From a virus, in the IMG/VR virus record IMGVR_UViG_3300006100_000036, positions 1-35,990 of that record: a stretch of 35,990 bases of DNA; one strand, 5' to 3'. Below, piece by piece: positions 2,827 through 35,357 of this stretch. The notes beneath the pieces are model-generated. The model was not told where the DNA came from. It searched no databases and was given only the letters and a program-made list of their open reading frames with translations. A program made the translations under genes and the position numbers. Numbering within the stretch: the first letter of the stretch is position 1; the number at the start of each line of letters is the position of its first letter.

Positions 2827-3187
2827 TTTGGAGGATCGGGTCGGTGCCGTAGAGCCACGCCTCACGAGCGCGCTCGGCGGCTCGCATCTCGGCTGGCCCG
2901 TCCCACGCGTGGACAACGTACCCATGTTCGAGAGCCCACTGAGGGTTCTCCGTGATCCAGCGGTGGCAACCACGACAGAGAGCGAGACAGTTGTCGTCGT
3001 CGAGGATGGAGCCTCCCCGGGCGCGAGTCTTAATCTCGTGGACGTCGGTCGCGTGATACGAGCAGAACGGCTCGATGGTCGCTTGGCATCGTGGCGAGCG
3101 GTCGAGGACTCGGAGCCGTAGAGACGCGCGGTCGTTTTTCATCCCGGCGCGCTTTTTCGAGACGGGGTTGATGCGGCTCCGCTTCAT
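2804..3187 (-). CDS. HNH endonuclease-like protein
   Basis: This is a 127-aa protein with a basic N-terminus (MKRSRINPVSKKRAG) and an HNH core: DVHEIKTRARGG, then DDDNCLALCRGCHRWI and a terminal helix. The cysteines before and within the core (CQATIEPFC and CRGCH) fit the zinc-stabilised HNH type. Proteins of this kind in phages are free-standing homing endonucleases, packaging-associated nicking enzymes or NinG-like recombination nucleases. The position next to VRR-NUC, far from the terminase, favours a replication/recombination role. The ATG at 3187 overlaps the preceding gene by 4 nt; a longer upstream frame is rejected as a shadow. Confidence 0.82.
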   Translation of the reverse strand: MKRSRINPVSKKRAGMKNDRASLRLRVLDRSPRCQATIEPFCSYHATDVHEIKTRARGGSILDDDNCLALCRGCHRWITENPQWALEHGYVVHAWDGPAEMRAAERAREAWLYGTDPILQNAEEDFS

Positions 3188-3561
3188 GGCAGGTCCGGTA
3201 CTTCGACGGCCGGCCACTTGTTCCGCTTCTCGAAGGTCTCGACGCTCCGCTCGACGCAGGTGCCGCAGAGGTGCGGGTGCGCGTTCCAGTACGACTCGTA
3301 GCGCCGCATCGACCAGACTCCACAACCCTCGCAGAAGCCCGGGAGGAGAGTCCGTACCTCGTCGTAGTGTTCCTCGATGGCGAAGCGGACACTCTCCGGA
3401 GGGATAGGCGAGACGTTGAGTTCATTGTCACTGCGCTTCCAAAAGACCGAGCAGTCGAACTCTTGGAGTGAGATCAGGACTCGGACGAGGGAGCAGAGGG
3501 GAGCGTCGGGAGAGTCTTGCTGACGGATGCCGAGGGAGTCCACGGAGACATCGTATGTCAC
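3184..3561 (-). CDS. Hypothetical protein with a CxxC...CxxC zinc motif, 125 aa
   Basis: The start is GTG at 3561, overlapping the initiator-like gene's stop as GTGA. The C-terminal half carries CEGC and CGTC about 20 residues apart, with several aromatics between them, consistent with a zinc ribbon. The N-terminal half has no recognisable motif. It is coupled at both ends (initiator-like gene upstream, HNH protein downstream), so it probably works with DNA, but I cannot name a family. Confidence 0.6.
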   Translation of the reverse strand: MTYDVSVDSLGIRQQDSPDAPLCSLVRVLISLQEFDCSVFWKRSDNELNVSPIPPESVRFAIEEHYDEVRTLLPGFCEGCGVWSMRRYESYWNAHPHLCGTCVERSVETFEKRNKWPAVEVPDLP

Positions 3562-4037
3562 TTGGCGGATGTCTGCCGGAGTGTCTGCCGGATGTTCTGG
3601 AGAGCGACGACGCGAGCATTTTCTGAACTGTCGTCGGTCGTTTGTTTAATATCAGGGTTCTTTATAGTTAGGGGGTCGTGGCTGTCCGCCCATTGTGTCG
3701 CAGATGTCCGCCCAAACGGACCAGATGTCCGCCCATCTTTCTCTTTGACCGGACGAGGTGTCCGCCCATAACCATCAGGAGGACCCGGGAAGTAGTAGAC
3801 GGTACACCTCCCTCGACCGGCTGGACGCTCCACTCGGATCACTCCCAAATCGACCAGTTCGCGCAGACACCTCCGGACGTGACGAACGGACAGTCCCGTC
3901 TTCTCGGAGAGAAACTCCTGCGACGGCCGCGCCTCATGGCCGTCGTCGTGCGCGTGGTCAGCAAGCGCGACCGCGACGTATTTAGTCGTCGGAGCGAGGT
4001 CGAGGCTCCAGACGTAGTTCTGAACGTAGATTGACAT
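3558..4037 (-). CDS. Winged-helix replication initiator-like protein
   Basis: The N-terminal 85 residues follow the helix-turn-helix pattern of phage and plasmid initiators (HTH_36/lambda O N-terminal type). They show TTKYVAVALADHAHDDG, then PSQEFLSEKTGLSVRHVRR and a LVDLGVIRVER wing. The C-terminal 75 residues are low-complexity, with repeated GRT and RQT units encoded by repeated DNA (see the repeats at 3683-3768 and 3570-3592). The start ATG at 4037 has GGAG upstream and sits 56 nt inside the WhiB gene. I infer that it binds the repeats in its own gene to open an origin. A transcriptional regulator is the main alternative. Confidence 0.7.
   Translation of the reverse strand: MSIYVQNYVWSLDLAPTTKYVAVALADHAHDDGHEARPSQEFLSEKTGLSVRHVRRCLRELVDLGVIRVERPAGRGRCTVYYFPGPPDGYGRTPRPVKEKDGRTSGPFGRTSATQWADSHDPLTIKNPDIKQTTDDSSENARVVALQNIRQTLRQTSAK
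3570..3592 (+). repeat. Tandem TGTCTGCCGGA repeat
   Basis: Two perfect copies of TGTCTGCCGGA (3570-3580 and 3582-3592) are spaced 12 bases apart at the 3' end of the initiator-like gene, and a partial third copy follows. They encode the RQT units at the protein C-terminus. They may simply reflect amino acid repetition, or may form part of the same origin region as the TGTCCGCCCA repeats upstream. Confidence 0.6.
3633..3768 (+). repeat. Iteron-like direct repeats plus AT-rich tract, candidate replication origin
   Basis: Four perfect copies of the decamer TGTCCGCCCA lie at 3683-3692, 3705-3714, 3726-3735 and 3759-3768, with start-to-start spacings of 22, 21 and 33 bases. These are close to two, two and three helical turns. 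Three copies are read as Gly-Arg-Thr, but the leftmost is in another frame (Trp-Ala-Asp-Ser), so DNA identity rather than protein sequence seems to be conserved. An unusually AT-rich stretch (3640-3672) adjoins the array. Iterons inside the initiator gene next to an AT-rich region are the known lambda-O arrangement. Origin function here is inference. Confidence 0.65.
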
Positions 4038-4317
4038 AGGTCTCCATCGGCGAGTCGCGTTGTCGTAGGTTGGCGCGCTCCAGAGTCATCCCAAGCGCCT
4101 CCCGGATAAGTCGGCGCTCCTTCGCGGTCGTACCGGCCCAGTAGCCGTAGTCCTCGTATTGGAGCGCGTATGTGTAGCATTCGAGGCCGACTGGACACCG
4201 CGAGCATAGTTCTATCGCTCGCGGTGGCAGAGGCGTCCGTCCGTCCTCGTGAGCGAAGTAGGTGTCCTTCGGCTCATCACGACAAGCGGCGCTCTTTGTC
4301 CAGTCGTCCGTCTTCAT
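3982..4317 (-). CDS. WhiB-family iron-sulfur transcriptional regulator
   Basis: The 111-aa protein has the four conserved cysteines Cys12, Cys38, Cys41 and Cys47 (as AACRD and CSRCPVGLEC), which ligate a [4Fe-4S] cluster. The GYWAG turn at 58-62 is followed by the basic segment KERRLIRE. WhiB-like proteins act with the host primary sigma factor and are restricted to Actinomycetota and their phages, so this gene is the best host indicator in the window. Phage WhiB proteins can repress or reprogramme host genes; the three sigma-70-like phage promoters are possible targets, though that is speculation. The start ATG overlaps the preceding stop by 4 nt. Confidence 0.92.
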   Translation of the reverse strand: MKTDDWTKSAACRDEPKDTYFAHEDGRTPLPPRAIELCSRCPVGLECYTYALQYEDYGYWAGTTAKERRLIREALGMTLERANLRQRDSPMETYVNLRSELRLEPRPRSDD

Positions 4318-7343: not shown

Positions 7344-7841
7344 CTACAACGTTGAGACGAGTGACTCGTATAGTTGCGCCGGAGTCACGGTGTAGATGTC
7401 TCCCCAGTCTGAGAGCCATCCTCCGTAGCGGAGAGCCTCAGCGACGAGCGCGGAGCAGACCCACGTCGACGGCCTTCGGAACGATGGAAACCAGTTCGGC
7501 GTCAGGATGTCGAAGAAGATGCTGACGATGCTCCCCCATCCATACCGACTGCCGACCTGCTCCTCGGCGAACTGGAGTATCCAGTCGGCCTGCGTTCCGA
7601 TCGGAGGAGAGAACAAAACGTACTCGCCGACTGACTCGATGCGCTTGTCATCGGTCACTCCGCGCGGTTCCGCTTGGATGACGTAGACGCCGGTCGTGTC
7701 GACTCGCGAAACGATGGCGACGTGGTTCCAGTGACTCGGCTTCTCGCCCCAGCGGATACGTTCGCCGAAGCGAATGGCGCGACCCATCGCTCCGTCGGAG
7801 TGTGCGAAGACGATGTCGCCGGGCTGAGGGACCTGAGTCAC
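7344..7841 (-). CDS. Permuted NlpC/P60 (YiiX-like) cysteine peptidase, putative endolysin
   Basis: The 165-aa protein shows the circularly permuted papain-like order, with histidine before cysteine. PGDIVFAHS is followed by SHWNHVAIV with His40, a glutamate near residue 58, and STWVCSALVAEAL with Cys129. Such enzymes cleave peptide or amide bonds in cell-wall peptides or lipids. The position directly after a holin-like gene supports a lysis role. I choose the GTG at 7841, which overlaps the holin stop as GTGA; the 21-residue upstream extension is Arg/Ser-rich and lies wholly inside the holin gene. It is the last gene before the terminator. Confidence 0.75.
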   Translation of the reverse strand: MTQVPQPGDIVFAHSDGAMGRAIRFGERIRWGEKPSHWNHVAIVSRVDTTGVYVIQAEPRGVTDDKRIESVGEYVLFSPPIGTQADWILQFAEEQVGSRYGWGSIVSIFFDILTPNWFPSFRRPSTWVCSALVAEALRYGGWLSDWGDIYTVTPAQLYESLVSTL

Positions 7842-8089
7842 TGAGCCGGAGTCTCGACCGGGACGGTTCCAGCGGCCTTGACTGGCAGAGCGCCGAGGAG
7901 CCATCCGAGGTTCGGGTACTTCTTCTCCAGCACCTTAACGCCGGTGTAGTAGGCCGTCGAGATGATTGGGAGGAGCGCGATGAGTTCCGCCTTCGGGACG
8001 TGGCTCGTCAGTCTGGTCGCGTAGGCGATCACGTCGGCGACCGCGATAGGGACGAACGTGCGGATGACGTTCTTGAGGTCGTTGTTCAT
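7838..8089 (-). CDS. Holin-like membrane protein, 83 aa
   Basis: The size, charged ends and hydrophobic segments (about residues 9-25, FVPIAVADVIAYATRL, and 34-50, AELIALLPIISTAYYTG) fit a small phage holin. A third weakly hydrophobic stretch (GWLLGALPV) is near the C-terminus. Holins permeabilise the cell membrane so that endolysin reaches the wall. It overlaps the peptidase gene by 4 nt and is itself coupled to the 48-aa gene upstream. The assignment rests on topology and neighbourhood rather than sequence family. Confidence 0.7.
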   Translation of the reverse strand: MNNDLKNVIRTFVPIAVADVIAYATRLTSHVPKAELIALLPIISTAYYTGVKVLEKKYPNLGWLLGALPVKAAGTVPVETPAQ

Positions 8090-29126: not shown

Positions 29127-32100
29127 CTACGAGACTACCGCCGCGACGGTGCAACGGCAATTAGGGTGATCCGGTGGCACCGGGTCGGAGAGGTCGTGAG
29201 CGCCCTCCAGAGCCGCGCACTCGGGACAAGCGGTGTCGTAGGCAATCCACTCAAACTGTTTAGTTCCAGCGGCCGCGTACTGGTCGACGCTCGCGAGGTT
29301 GTAGGCGCGGTTCGTCTCAGTGATGGCGATGGTCATGGAGCGGACCGGGTCCGCGATGATGGCATTGACACTGGCCGCGATGGTGCGCGCGGGGAAGCCC
29401 TGAGAGACACCGGAGGCGATGGAGTTGCCGATACGGTCGACCGACGTCTTGCCTATACCGTCGAGCGTTATGTCCAGCGAGTCGAGGTTGGCTCGGAGCA
29501 TCCCGTCCGCGAGGTTGGTGGCGGCCATCGGATGACCGGGAGTCCATGAGGACCAGTCGACAGTCTTGACCGCGGCGCGCGCCAGTCCGTATGAGAGTTT
29601 CGCTCCGGCTCCCATCTCCTTCACCGCGTTGACCGTCCCGACGTATCCGGCGTCCATCGACATCTCGGCGATGACGGAGGCGAGTGGCTTGTTGTTGTAG
29701 GTGATAAAGCGAGCGACGATAGAGGCTATGTCGTCTCCAGCCGCCTTCTCGCCGATGACTTTCTCGACTGCGGCGATGGCCTCGTCGATGCCGGAGAACG
29801 ACTCCGCGAGCGCCTTCGTGATCCGAGGAGCGTAGTGGTTCTCTATCGCTCGCTTTTGAGTGATGCCGGGGAGGTCGTCCGCGCTCCGCTTAGTAATCGA
29901 AGCGCCGGATACTTTTGGGGTATCACCAGACGAGACCGTCTTCTCCTCGTGTCCAGCGATGCCCTTGACCCATGAGTAGCCAGCGTCACCGCCCCACGCG
30001 TCCCATGCGACTCGACCCGGAGACGGATACCCGTCCTCACCAGCGGAGAAACCAGTCGCATCCTTGTCGACGGCGTGGCGGTCAAAGTACGCCTTCATAC
30101 GACGGACGGTCGCCATCGAGACACCGGCTCCGCGAGCGAGGTCCGACGCGCGCTTACGACCGACGTCGGTGAAACCCGAGCCGGCCCTGCCGTCAGCGAT
30201 CCAGTCGAGAGCGCGCTGAGCCGCGGCCTGAACTCCCTTCGGTGGCGTGTACGTCTCTCCCTTGACCGTGGCTTGAACGTCCTGATTGAAGCACCAAGCG
30301 TCCTCCTCGTTGATGGTCGTGAACTGGAAGTCCCGATAGACCGCGCCCTTGCGGAGTCGCGTCGAGACGTACTTGCCGAACGCTCGGAGTTCGTCGGCCA
30401 CGATGGACTTCTGCGCTACCGGAGGTGTCGACGCCCCGCCTTGAGACTCGACGACCTGCCCTTTGCTTTCTTTGCCTTGTGAGCCTTCTTCGGTGACGTT
30501 GGAACTGTCACTACCGGGCCGACTAACCACTTCATTCTCTTGTCCCTTCATCCCGATCGTCTCGCCGGTGGAGTCCTGCTCTAGTAGTCCGTTCAGGAAC
30601 TGGATTGTCTGACCGGCGACGATGAACGGTTCGTCCGCTTCCGGGATGTCGTAAAGCGGCATGTTGAGTTCACCGCGAACGTCGTTGATTGTCATCTGAC
30701 CGGACTGGAGTGACACTTGGAACGCCTGCGCGCGTCCGATCATGGTCGCGACGTTTGAGTCGTCGTCGTCGAACGAGAACGTGATGTTCTTGTCCGCGCC
30801 AAGGAACCGGCGGCTGAGGGTGTTGATGGTCTCGATGAGGAACGACTCCAGAGGCTTCTGCGAGGTCGTGAGAGCCGCTTGAGCCTGCCCGTCGTGTTCG
30901 CCCTTGCCACCGAGCCCGGAGCGCGGGACTATACCCATCGCGGCCGGAGCGACGCCGAAGACCGTACAGATACGGAGGATGATGTATTCGTCGTACTCGT
31001 TCTTATACCGCTCGTCGATGGTCGGAGCGAAGACGGGCTTGAAGCCGCGAGGGAGAACCTTCATCCGGTGGCGCTCGGCCGTCGACCCGACCAGTCGGTC
31101 GTTGAAGACGCGCTCGAAGGCGGCGAGGTGCGTCGGGTCCATCTCGTCGGAGTCGGTCTCAAAGAACGCCATCGGAGTTGCGCCGTCGCGGTACTCGGCC
31201 TTCATCCACTGTTGGCGGTCGAGGTAGAGGGTAGCCGCAGGGACGCACTCCTCGACTGCGGAGTACCCGTAAGGAGACCACGTTCGGCGATTGCGGACGA
31301 AGTAGGCCAGTTGGTCGCGTAGGTACTCGTCACTCTTACCCGGGGCCGTGAAGAACTCGCCGTCGCTGTTTGGCGTGTATTGGAACTCTCCGCGCGGGAA
31401 GCCCCAGAGGACCTGCTGAAAGGCTGGCGAAGGAGGTTCAGGAATGGCGCCTCGGTTGTCGAGTAGGACTTTTATTGTCGGCGCGTCGACAATCTCGAAG
31501 CCGAGGACCTTCCGTCCGAGGTTGTAGCGAGGGTAGACCGGCGTCCCATCGAATACGAAGTGAGTCCAGAGGAACTCCGTCATCCACTCAGTAAAGGAGC
31601 GGCCTAACTGCGGGTACGGGTTCTCCCAGAACTTCCGGAGGTCGTCGATGGCTTCGGAGTAGCGATCGCGCGCGATGCGAGCGGCCTTCGCGTGCGAGCA
31701 GTTCTGCTCCGCCATGATGGAGGCGATAGTGGCGTCCTCGATTTGGAACGACCATTCCATCTTCGTAATCTCCGCAATCTTGATTTCGATGGCGCGGTGG
31801 ATGATGTCAATCTGGTCGGCCATCGAGCGGAGGACGGTCCACGGAGTCGACCGCTGGTTGAGGTCGAGGTTCCACGCGACCGGATACTCCCAGATACGAG
31901 GGAGAGCGCGACCGGAGTCGTCGTAGACGGGGTCGAGTGGAGCCGGGAGGAAAGGAGCCGAGGGACCGAGTTGCGCACCGAACGACGTCGCCGGCCGTGG
32001 CAGAGGGTTCGCTTGCATCCCGGGAGTCTGGAGGAGTCCCTGACCACCGCTCGCCGTCATCTGAGAAGGCATCGCGGCTGACGCCGTCGCGTATCCAGAG

Positions 32101-32204
32101 CCGCCGTATGGCGTCGACGACATCGCGTTCGTCGCCTTTGACAACCCCTCGACGATCCGCTCTACAAGCGCGTCGTCCTTCTTCTTGCGGCTGAATAGTG
32201 CCAT
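29127..32204 (-). CDS. Portal protein fused to MuF-like domain, 1025 aa
   Basis: Residues 1-540 are a portal protein: STPWTVLRSMADQIDIIHRA, MEWSFQIED, RRTWSPYGYSAVEECVPAA, and LRICTVFGVAPAAMGI. A Gln/Ser/Gly linker (about 545-600) leads to a separate domain at 653-745 with ALDWIADGRAGSGFTDVGRK and RVAWDAWGGDAGYSW, seen in various phage head proteins but of unknown role. The last 130 residues are MuF-like, ending in the cysteine pattern CPEC...PDHPNCRC. Portal and MuF proteins are usually separate genes, so this fusion would place MuF copies at the portal vertex. Confidence 0.87.
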   Translation of the reverse strand: MALFSRKKKDDALVERIVEGLSKATNAMSSTPYGGSGYATASAAMPSQMTASGGQGLLQTPGMQANPLPRPATSFGAQLGPSAPFLPAPLDPVYDDSGRALPRIWEYPVAWNLDLNQRSTPWTVLRSMADQIDIIHRAIEIKIAEITKMEWSFQIEDATIASIMAEQNCSHAKAARIARDRYSEAIDDLRKFWENPYPQLGRSFTEWMTEFLWTHFVFDGTPVYPRYNLGRKVLGFEIVDAPTIKVLLDNRGAIPEPPSPAFQQVLWGFPRGEFQYTPNSDGEFFTAPGKSDEYLRDQLAYFVRNRRTWSPYGYSAVEECVPAATLYLDRQQWMKAEYRDGATPMAFFETDSDEMDPTHLAAFERVFNDRLVGSTAERHRMKVLPRGFKPVFAPTIDERYKNEYDEYIILRICTVFGVAPAAMGIVPRSGLGGKGEHDGQAQAALTTSQKPLESFLIETINTLSRRFLGADKNITFSFDDDDSNVATMIGRAQAFQVSLQSGQMTINDVRGELNMPLYDIPEADEPFIVAGQTIQFLNGLLEQDSTGETIGMKGQENEVVSRPGSDSSNVTEEGSQGKESKGQVVESQGGASTPPVAQKSIVADELRAFGKYVSTRLRKGAVYRDFQFTTINEEDAWCFNQDVQATVKGETYTPPKGVQAAAQRALDWIADGRAGSGFTDVGRKRASDLARGAGVSMATVRRMKAYFDRHAVDKDATGFSAGEDGYPSPGRVAWDAWGGDAGYSWVKGIAGHEEKTVSSGDTPKVSGASITKRSADDLPGITQKRAIENHYAPRITKALAESFSGIDEAIAAVEKVIGEKAAGDDIASIVARFITYNNKPLASVIAEMSMDAGYVGTVNAVKEMGAGAKLSYGLARAAVKTVDWSSWTPGHPMAATNLADGMLRANLDSLDITLDGIGKTSVDRIGNSIASGVSQGFPARTIAASVNAIIADPVRSMTIAITETNRAYNLASVDQYAAAGTKQFEWIAYDTACPECAALEGAHDLSDPVPPDHPNCRCTVAAVVS

Positions 32205-34048: not shown

Positions 34049-34756
34049 CTACCGTTTCTCGCCGCGGTACATAGACGCACCGGCCTCGGCAATCGCGGAG
34101 TAGGGGAGGACGGGGATGGTGAGCCGCTCGCGGACGGACGGGTCGAGTAGGTAGATGTACCGCAGTTGGAAGCCCGGGAGCGCCTCGGCTCCGATGCTCT
34201 TGAGGAAGACGCCGGAGGACTCCGAGCCGGTCTTGCCGTAGCGCGCCTTTACGCTCCCTCCCTTCGCGTTCGGACTAAAGCCGGGCTCTAGGACAATCTT
34301 GGCGATCACCTCTCCGTCGGGCATCCGGTACATCGACGAGTTCTTCTTGATTTGAGTCAGCAGGAAACCGGCCGCGCGGTAGATGGTCCCGTCCCCGCAT
34401 TGAGTCGCGTCGGCGTATGAAACGACCCATTTGACCTGAGGCGCGTGTTTCTTGAGCAGTCGCATCGAGACGGCGATGGCGCGGCTCTCCGCGTTCTTTG
34501 GTAGCGCGTCCGAGAACGCGAGACGGTTCAGTTCCAGAAACTCATTCCATCCGGCTCCCTCGACGAACCGCTGAGTCTTGGACTTGTCAATGGACGGGCC
34601 GAACTGGAGGACTCCCTCAAGATGGCCCTCCCAGAAGACTCCGAGGTGGAGTTGGCTCCTCGGGTCGACCTTGCCGGAGTAGTGGTGCTTCCGTACAAAC
34701 GCGCGCGCGTCCGACGCCGCGATCGGTTTGACGATGAGATCCTTAACCGAGGCCAC
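34049..34756 (-). CDS. Mom-like DNA adenine modification enzyme (GNAT fold)
   Basis: The 235-aa protein closely follows Mom-like proteins in length and motifs. These are VRKHHYSG (21-28), LHLGVFWEGHLEGVLQFG (37-53), ELNRLAF (75-81), PKNAESRAIA (86-95) and SYADATQCGDGTIYRAAGF (113-131). In phage Mu, Mom makes N6-carbamoylmethyladenine in phage DNA and blocks restriction. Family members are iron-dependent acyltransferase-like enzymes. The start is GTG at 34756, with AGGA upstream and 14 nt of overlap with the ParB-like gene. Modification of this phage's own DNA is inferred, not shown. Confidence 0.82.
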   Translation of the reverse strand: MASVKDLIVKPIAASDARAFVRKHHYSGKVDPRSQLHLGVFWEGHLEGVLQFGPSIDKSKTQRFVEGAGWNEFLELNRLAFSDALPKNAESRAIAVSMRLLKKHAPQVKWVVSYADATQCGDGTIYRAAGFLLTQIKKNSSMYRMPDGEVIAKIVLEPGFSPNAKGGSVKARYGKTGSESSGVFLKSIGAEALPGFQLRYIYLLDPSVRERLTIPVLPYSAIAEAGASMYRGEKR

Positions 34757-35357
34757 GGATGAAGTCCTGAGCGATGAAGGCGAGCGCGTTGCCGTTCGAG
34801 TTCTTGTTGCCGGTGTCGAGGTCGAAGCCGTTGAGGTGCTTGCATCGAGCGAGCGCCTCCTTGACCGTCTCAGACTGGTCGAGAGTCATCGTGAACGTCA
34901 TCTGCGTTATGTCGCTCCGGTCTCCATCCGGGAGCGCGCCGAAGGCATCCTCCTCGGACAGTACGGTCGTCAGCAGTTCGTCGAGGTCGTCTCCGTCGTA
35001 TCCAGTCCCTTTGAGGTGACTCTCCGTCGAGGCGAGGTCGCGCAGTAGGTCGGCGAGCGCGTGGTCGTTGTAGGTCGCGAGGTCGTTCGCTCGATTGTCG
35101 ACGAGCAGGATGCGGAGAGCGCGATCATCGTCGACGTCGAGTTCTGTCGTCTCGATGCGCGTCCATCCGAGCGCCTTAGCCGCTTTCCAAGTGTGGTTAC
35201 CGGCGAGTATGTATCCCGTCGACTTCTGGACGACTATCGGTCGATACTGACCATGAGCCCGGAGACTCTCCGAGATGGCGCCGACGTCGCCTTGCCGGAC
35301 GTTCTGCGGGTGAGGTTTGACGTCGTCAATCGGCGTGTTGGAAATCGTGAGGGACAT
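34743..35357 (-). CDS. ParB-like nuclease-fold protein, 204 aa
   Basis: The ParB/sulfiredoxin fold is evident: VKPHPQNVR (13-21), SLRAHGQYRPIVV (31-43), GYILAGNHTWKAAKALGW (48-65) and ILLVDNRAND (83-92). The GNHT variant in place of GERR is usual in phage ParB-like proteins next to modification or terminase genes. The C-terminal 90 residues, with TMTLDQSETVKEALARC, look like an added helical domain. These proteins have CTPase, nicking or DNA-binding roles in different systems. Here it overlaps the Mom-like gene and may target or regulate DNA modification. GGAGG precedes the ATG at 35357. Confidence 0.8.
   Translation of the reverse strand: MSLTISNTPIDDVKPHPQNVRQGDVGAISESLRAHGQYRPIVVQKSTGYILAGNHTWKAAKALGWTRIETTELDVDDDRALRILLVDNRANDLATYNDHALADLLRDLASTESHLKGTGYDGDDLDELLTTVLSEEDAFGALPDGDRSDITQMTFTMTLDQSETVKEALARCKHLNGFDLDTGNKNSNGNALAFIAQDFIRGLG

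Follow-up and report, generated by a model that had tools for sequence, protein, structure and literature searches.

Replication origins that lie within the coding sequence of their own initiator are already known. In phage lambda and the Stx phages, iterons inside the initiator gene are followed by an AT-rich tract (PMC7466680), and the SPP1 origin oriL, in gene 38, likewise consists of direct repeats and an AT-rich element for unwinding that lie within the gene of the initiator (PMC6316719). The rep gene of plasmid pSK41 carries four Rep boxes in its central part, where they encode a linker between the winged helix and the C-terminal domain of Rep, and the Rep protein of the chimeric plasmid pPR9 has a pfam13730 N-terminal domain and is encoded by a rep region that supports replication (PMC5703833). 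For the RepL/oriL system of P1, an origin has been postulated in the initiator gene, and synonymous changes in an AT-rich tract there are reported to inhibit replication (PMC9948254). Here, we describe a locus in a linear viral sequence record, 35,990 bases long (the whole stretch analyzed, referred to as the window), which also carries terminase, portal, and tail genes. Judging from its sequence and anatomy, an iteron array in this locus is very probably a phage replication origin located inside the coding sequence of its own initiator, lambda-like in arrangement and with a winged-helix, iteron, and AT-tract mechanism.

The window contains four exact copies of the decamer TGTCCGCCCA on the plus strand between 3683 and 3768 (Table 1), with start-to-start spacings of 22, 21, and 33 bp, just as the original prediction had claimed. 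Read on the minus strand, that of the gene, the decamer is TGGGCGGACA and begins at gene nucleotides 270, 303, 324, and 346 (spacings of 33, 21, and 22). No further exact copy of TGTCCGCCCA exists in the contig, and a single copy with one mismatch lies at 1134. None of 200 order-2 Markov genomes contained any 10-mer four times within 120 bp, and when the initiator gene was resampled 4,000 times with synonymous codons, some 10-mer occurred three times in 4 resamplings and four times in none. Iterons 1 to 3 read x-GGG-CGG-ACA, encoding Gly-Arg-Thr, while the copy at gene nucleotide 346 is indeed shifted by one base, as had been noted, and reads TGG-GCG-GAC (Trp-Ala-Asp). The rare codons GGG and ACA are present in each Gly-Arg-Thr copy, and the probability of choosing GGG-CGG-ACA for this tripeptide under the codon use of this phage is 0.002 per copy. 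The decamer is the conserved core of the iteron. Copies 1 and 2 can be read as CGGAC-N5-GTCCG, and the symmetry across all window copies has a p value of 0.075; dyad symmetry reached p < 0.05 in 9 of 36 genes, which does not support it as a general property of these iterons. We found no second array of the iteron type in the contig, where the other clustered 9-mers are CCACCA-type repeats at ~11.2 to 11.8 kb. Two tandem 12-mers, TGTCTGCCGGAG and TGTCTGCCGGAT, at 3570-3593 near the 3' end of the initiator gene, resemble the iteron (TGTCCGCC), a likeness that may be due to chance.

Next to the last iteron, the proposed AT-rich tract is present: the 45 bp at 3626-3670 are 64% A+T in a contig of ~40% A+T and rank in the top 0.13% of its 45-bp windows. 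The span of 3633-3768 first singled out takes in the array and most of this element, and the adjoining AT-rich stretch starts at ~3626. Within the tract, the motif CCCTAACTATAAAGAACC matches the motif of the relatives at 17 of 18 positions, compared with 14 for the best of 100 shuffles. On the minus strand, iteron 4 of the window is closely followed on its 3' side by a degenerate form of the AACC element described below, TAACTATAAAGAACCCTGATATTAAAC, with a single AACC.

Table 1. Features of the initiator locus in the 35,990-nt window
Feature	Position	Strand	Basis or remark
Downstream gene; 125-aa product with a small alpha/beta domain and a four-cysteine ribbon	3184..3561	-	Model
Initiator gene, 159 aa, HTH_36 winged helix ("replication initiation O-like")	3558..4037	-	Pfam, PHROG, AlphaFold2
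C-terminal helix, residues 137-158	3564..3629	-	Modelled, pLDDT ~82-90
AT-rich tract, proposed unwinding element	3626..3673	-	A+T content of window and homologs
Origin-encoded protein linker, residues 90-135	3633..3770	-	Low model confidence, pLDDT 51-61
Conserved motif CCCTAACTATAAAGAACC	3656..3673	-	p = first base, 3673; two AAC(C) elements with one-turn spacing
Iteron 4 TGGGCGGACA	3683..3692	-	Slot p-19; reading frame unlike iterons 1-3
Iteron 3 TGGGCGGACA	3705..3714	-	Slot p-41
Iteron 2 TGGGCGGACA	3726..3735	-	Slot p-62
Iteron 1 TGGGCGGACA	3759..3768	-	Slot p-95
HTH_36 DNA-binding domain, residues 14-65	3843..3998	-	Pfam, AlphaFold2; predicted iteron binder
WhiB-like gene	3982-4317	-	Its end overlaps the initiator gene start

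The gene that houses the array encodes a 159-aa protein whose N terminus matches the Pfam family HTH_36 (PF13730) with an E value of 3e-10 (40.2 bits against a cut-off of 25), and all 26 of 26 aligned homologs match the same family. Together with matches to PHROG families 1032, 270, 391, and 678, all of them replication initiation families (E values of 2e-13 to 6e-11), this agrees with the earlier description of a winged-helix, initiator-like gene. Neither the window protein nor the 26 homologs gave a Pfam match to Phage_rep_O (PF04492) or to RepA_N; by sequence, the protein classes as an HTH_36 phage initiator and belongs neither to the lambda O Pfam family nor to RepA_N. In the AlphaFold2 model, residues 1-85 form a winged helix with pLDDT values mostly above 90, and the low-confidence linker that separates it from the C-terminal helix coincides exactly with the origin-encoding stretch. 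As a flexible linker, this segment would have residues that are free to follow the needs of the DNA. The C-terminal helix is a candidate contact for host replication proteins. No solved structure matched the 159-aa protein by sequence, and a fold search with the model (Foldseek) gave hits to generic winged helices only, LexA and CRP among them; top rank went to 4pql (E value of 2.7e-3), which we take to be a pSK41-type RepA domain, and many generic winged helices score alike.

The similarity of the model to LexA and CRP, along with the frequent use of winged-helix proteins as repressors, could also mean that the array is an operator through which the protein regulates its own and downstream transcription and not replication. 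We consider this unlikely. Sets of three to six sites two turns apart, always with a conserved AT-rich element on the same side, are what origins typically show and are uncommon in operators, and the best protein-family matches are replication initiators. Autoregulation by an origin-bound initiator would be compatible with these observations.

In a set of 56 non-redundant homologous genes, we counted exact repeats with a length of 8 nt or more and compared them with those in 200 synonymous shuffles. Repeats at a distance of 22 bp were observed 43 times against 2.1 expected (maximum of 5 in 200 shuffles), an excess of about 20-fold, and those at 21 bp were observed 43 times against 9.9 expected. 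Further peaks at ~10 to 11, 32 to 35, 42 to 44, and 54 to 55 bp complete a distribution as expected for sites that would lie on one face of the helix. Because a distance of 22 changes the reading frame, the 22-bp repeats cannot stem from an in-frame protein repeat. When genes of cultivated phages were included, a frame-changing 22-bp repeat was present in 36 of 65 genes (null mean of 2.6, maximum of 8), and in-gene repeats ~22 bp apart occur in the cultivated or named phages Abidatro, Polka, LESphi3, phi2, and EBPR podovirus 2.

Directly 3' of the iterons, in an AT-rich stretch, the homologous genes carry AACC units spaced by one helical turn. Between AACC words, distances of 10, 11, and 12 bp were observed 29, 19, and 17 times, compared with 4.6, 3.6, and 4.6 expected. 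The consensus unit is (G/T)AACC(A/G)TCA, repeated once per 10 to 12 bp and found in all three frames; at least two chained units are present in 47 of 66 genes, and AACC units were also present in those checked among the five named phages. Among phages with different iterons, the array of units hardly varies. In the 25 genes with a clear AT-rich motif, its frames are spread 9/8/8 across all three, and in 24 of 25 homologs the A+T content at the motif exceeds that of the gene itself (Wilcoxon p = 2e-7). A literature search on the AACC unit returned nothing relevant.

An exact search with the AT motif of the window reached three contigs only, all from close relatives, and a degenerate unit pattern was therefore used instead. 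This motif-first scan of viral contigs, meant as an independent check, relied on three AACC units alone and yielded 80 loci among the matches listed. The AACC element lay inside an open reading frame that scored with a hidden Markov model of the HTH domain, always on the same strand, at 56 of the 80 loci among the matches listed. Repeats of at least 8 nt spaced 20 to 23 bp apart were found in the 150 bp upstream of the element at 58 of 74 loci and in the 150 bp downstream at 4 of 78, against 2.8% of random windows from the same loci, again among the matches listed. The upstream repeats, among the matches listed, fell into 16 sequence clusters by loose single linkage (38 loci in the largest); in this search, which kept the AACC element fixed, the iterons thus proved diverse. 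When the 80 loci among the matches listed were read by eye, ~14 proved to be low-complexity GAACCG/TAACCG repeats or otherwise unrelated, and ~8 more were initiator genes cut by contig ends.

The genomic surroundings point to an actinobacterial host, because a WhiB-like gene is present in the contig. The early-gene block of the initiator also encodes an SSB, a RecE-like exonuclease with a YqaJ domain, and HNH and VRR-NUC proteins. Of 11 records searched, 10, among them the window, contain the downstream gene for a 125-aa protein, which is the direct neighbor of the initiator gene at the loci inspected; its product has invariant cysteines at C77, C80, C99, and C102, matches no Pfam or PHROG family, and might act as a partner in replication or as a helicase adaptor. 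A search for a DnaB-type helicase in the contig and in ten relatives, all of them contigs that may be incomplete, found none. The cumulative GC skew, a check suggested along with the original prediction, has no turn at the array site and dips at ~11 to 12 kb, and it neither supports nor opposes an origin there. Elsewhere in the contig, the first part of a 1,025-aa open reading frame (29127-32204, minus strand) matches a portal protein and the last part a minor head or head morphogenesis protein, an apparent portal-head protein fusion, and a 186-aa open reading frame (7344-7904, minus strand) has the PHROG label enoyl-CoA hydratase/carnitine racemase-like, a name that looks doubtful. A Mom-like DNA modification gene (34049-34756, minus strand) overlaps a ParB-like gene (34743-35357, minus strand). 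The presence of the latter, and the fact that direct repeats can serve such roles, would allow the array to function in packaging or partition, for example as a site for the ParB-like protein, but we regard this as very improbable: the array occurs nowhere in the contig outside the initiator gene, is found with HTH genes across unrelated contigs among the matches listed in the motif-first scan, and lies ~30 kb from the ParB-like gene on a linear contig.

A tblastn search of the phage collection with the 159-aa window protein gave no match at 1e-5, and the same search with the protein of a relative (L002) as the query gave 108 records. We compared the arrays of close relatives from IMG/VR, anchoring the slots on the conserved AT-rich motif (position p). 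Slots p-62, p-41, and p-19 are kept in 12 members of the window family, and p-95 is also kept in several. The iterons of each phage change in concert: over ten bases, copies from one phage differ by a mean Hamming distance of 1.28 and those that occupy the same slot in different phages by 4.85, and none of 5,000 permutations was as low. In the six-member window clade alone, the corresponding values are 0.67 and 1.78 (0 of 5,000), while the three-member L014 clade, which is too small for this comparison, gave 574 of 5,000. L014 and L093 have the iteron AGACCGGACA at the identical spacing of 33, 21, and 22, L011 has TGGGCGGTCA, L013 has AGGAGGACA, and in the close relative L086 the iterons are eroded. 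As a separate observation, the AT-proximal iteron in L014 (positions 445-465), L059, and others is followed by an inverted half-site (e.g., GGGTGACA-cagcta-TGTCACCC), which is weak in the window and could mark the boundary of a complex.

The reading frames of the slots are 2,2,2,0 in the window-type phages and 0,0,0,1 in the other subclade; array and motif lie in different frames in the two subclades, which have no common peptide there. At the level of sequence comparison, this confirms that DNA and not protein is conserved, with array and motif holding their DNA register while the peptide changes completely. Relatives with altered amino acids and frame retain a repeated DNA word at the same spacing, as the proposed selection on the DNA sequence itself would have it. 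The pattern named beforehand as contrary evidence, Gly-Arg-Thr repeats kept with the decamer broken by synonymous changes, was looked for in the relatives and did not occur; we saw the reverse. That the decamers are a mere DNA shadow of a functional Gly-Arg-Thr protein repeat, as the three of four copies giving this tripeptide in one frame might suggest, is scarcely credible in view of the frame-shifted fourth copy, the differing array frames and absence of a common peptide between subclades, the strong enrichment of frame-changing 22-bp repeats, and the rare GGG and ACA codons in every Gly-Arg-Thr copy.

We favor an in-gene origin, and from its anatomy and from precedent we infer that replication starts at the array. 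The family, the geometry, and the same precedents suggest that the winged helix of the 159-aa protein would bind the four iterons. Since these lie about two (or three) helical turns apart, the protomers would sit on nearly one face of the DNA, which would be wrapped. The wrapped complex would then open the AT-rich tract beside the last iteron, where the AACC-type elements are about one turn apart, and the exposed strand would receive the replicative helicase, probably that of the host; for unwinding and helicase loading, lambda, SPP1, and pSK41 serve as the models. Because no DnaB-type helicase was found, loading would rely on a putative host contact, and it may be helped by the C-terminal helix of the initiator and perhaps by the downstream four-cysteine protein.

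The recognition helix carries the residues SVRH with TGGGCGGACA, SDRH with AGACCGGACA, and TERH with AGGAGGACA. In a partial Mantel test, recognition helix and iteron were correlated with an r of 0.31 (0 of 2,000 permutations), compared with 0.29 for the rest of the domain and with shared descent uncontrolled. It is suggestive only that the recognition helix may vary in step with the iteron sequence, a trend that the test separates neither from variation in the remainder of the domain nor from common ancestry. A tentative possibility, which we hold as somewhat doubtful, is that HTH_36 phage origins are bipartite, with phage-specific iterons that track the recognition helix and an AACC array that is nearly constant across phages with widely different hosts and has a conserved reader. 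Candidate readers would be a replication factor of the host, the machinery that loads the helicase, or a surface for single-stranded DNA that the initiators have in common. If so, the constant part would serve as a shared docking code, and the variable part would encode incompatibility or identity. A limited search of open full-text papers did not find a family-wide bipartite origin, combining concertedly evolving iterons with a near-constant one-turn AACC array, in HTH_36 phage initiators. The origins of many uncultivated phages could be located from sequence alone by looking in HTH genes for two-turn repeats that have a one-turn AACC array on their 3' side, and the apparent joint change of binding sites and DNA-binding helices offers a natural experiment from which a recognition code could be read. 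The findings also raise the question of why one part of these origins stays the same in phages whose hosts are distant from one another and the other part changes freely.

Among the described systems, the lambda O/ori arrangement had been proposed as the match, and this holds for the layout but not for the initiator, which is of the HTH_36 family and has no Phage_rep_O match. In lambda O, the annotated iterons are in the gene, 20, 24, and 23 bp apart and in three frames, and those of the window are likewise in the gene; the lambda AT-rich tract (45 bp, 76% A+T) is on the same side of the iterons as in the window. In contrast, the lambda iterons are imperfect inverted repeats of ~18 to 19 bp, whereas the window has a direct decamer core without significant symmetry. 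Lambda O lacks the AACC array that most of the homologous genes compared have (degenerate in the window), the window initiator is about half as long as lambda O, and the next gene, for the four-cysteine protein, shows no relationship to P as far as tested. SPP1 gp38/oriL and the window both have repeats and an AT-rich element within the initiator gene, but SPP1 encodes a loader (gp39) and a helicase (gp40) of its own and has another origin that lies outside the gene, while neither a helicase nor a second array was found in the window. For P1 oriL, the abstract and outline of the report describe an AT-rich tract and no iterons (PMC9948254), whereas the window has iterons. The layout of pSK41 Rep, with a winged helix, an origin-encoded linker, and a C-terminal part, is shared with the model of the window protein, and pPR9 Rep has the Pfam domain pfam13730 in common with it; these are plasmids, however, and have a C-terminal domain of ~120 residues that binds DnaG, compared with the one C-terminal helix in the window. 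The domain of the window protein is that of the HTH_36 "O-like" phage proteins (PHROG 391, 678, 1032, and 270; Arthrobacter and Pseudomonas phages), most of which are longer (~200 to 330 aa) and have other iteron sequences. With repeats two turns apart in an initiator gene, apparent selection on the DNA, and an adjoining AT-rich tract, the window shares the sequence features of the class of in-gene origins.
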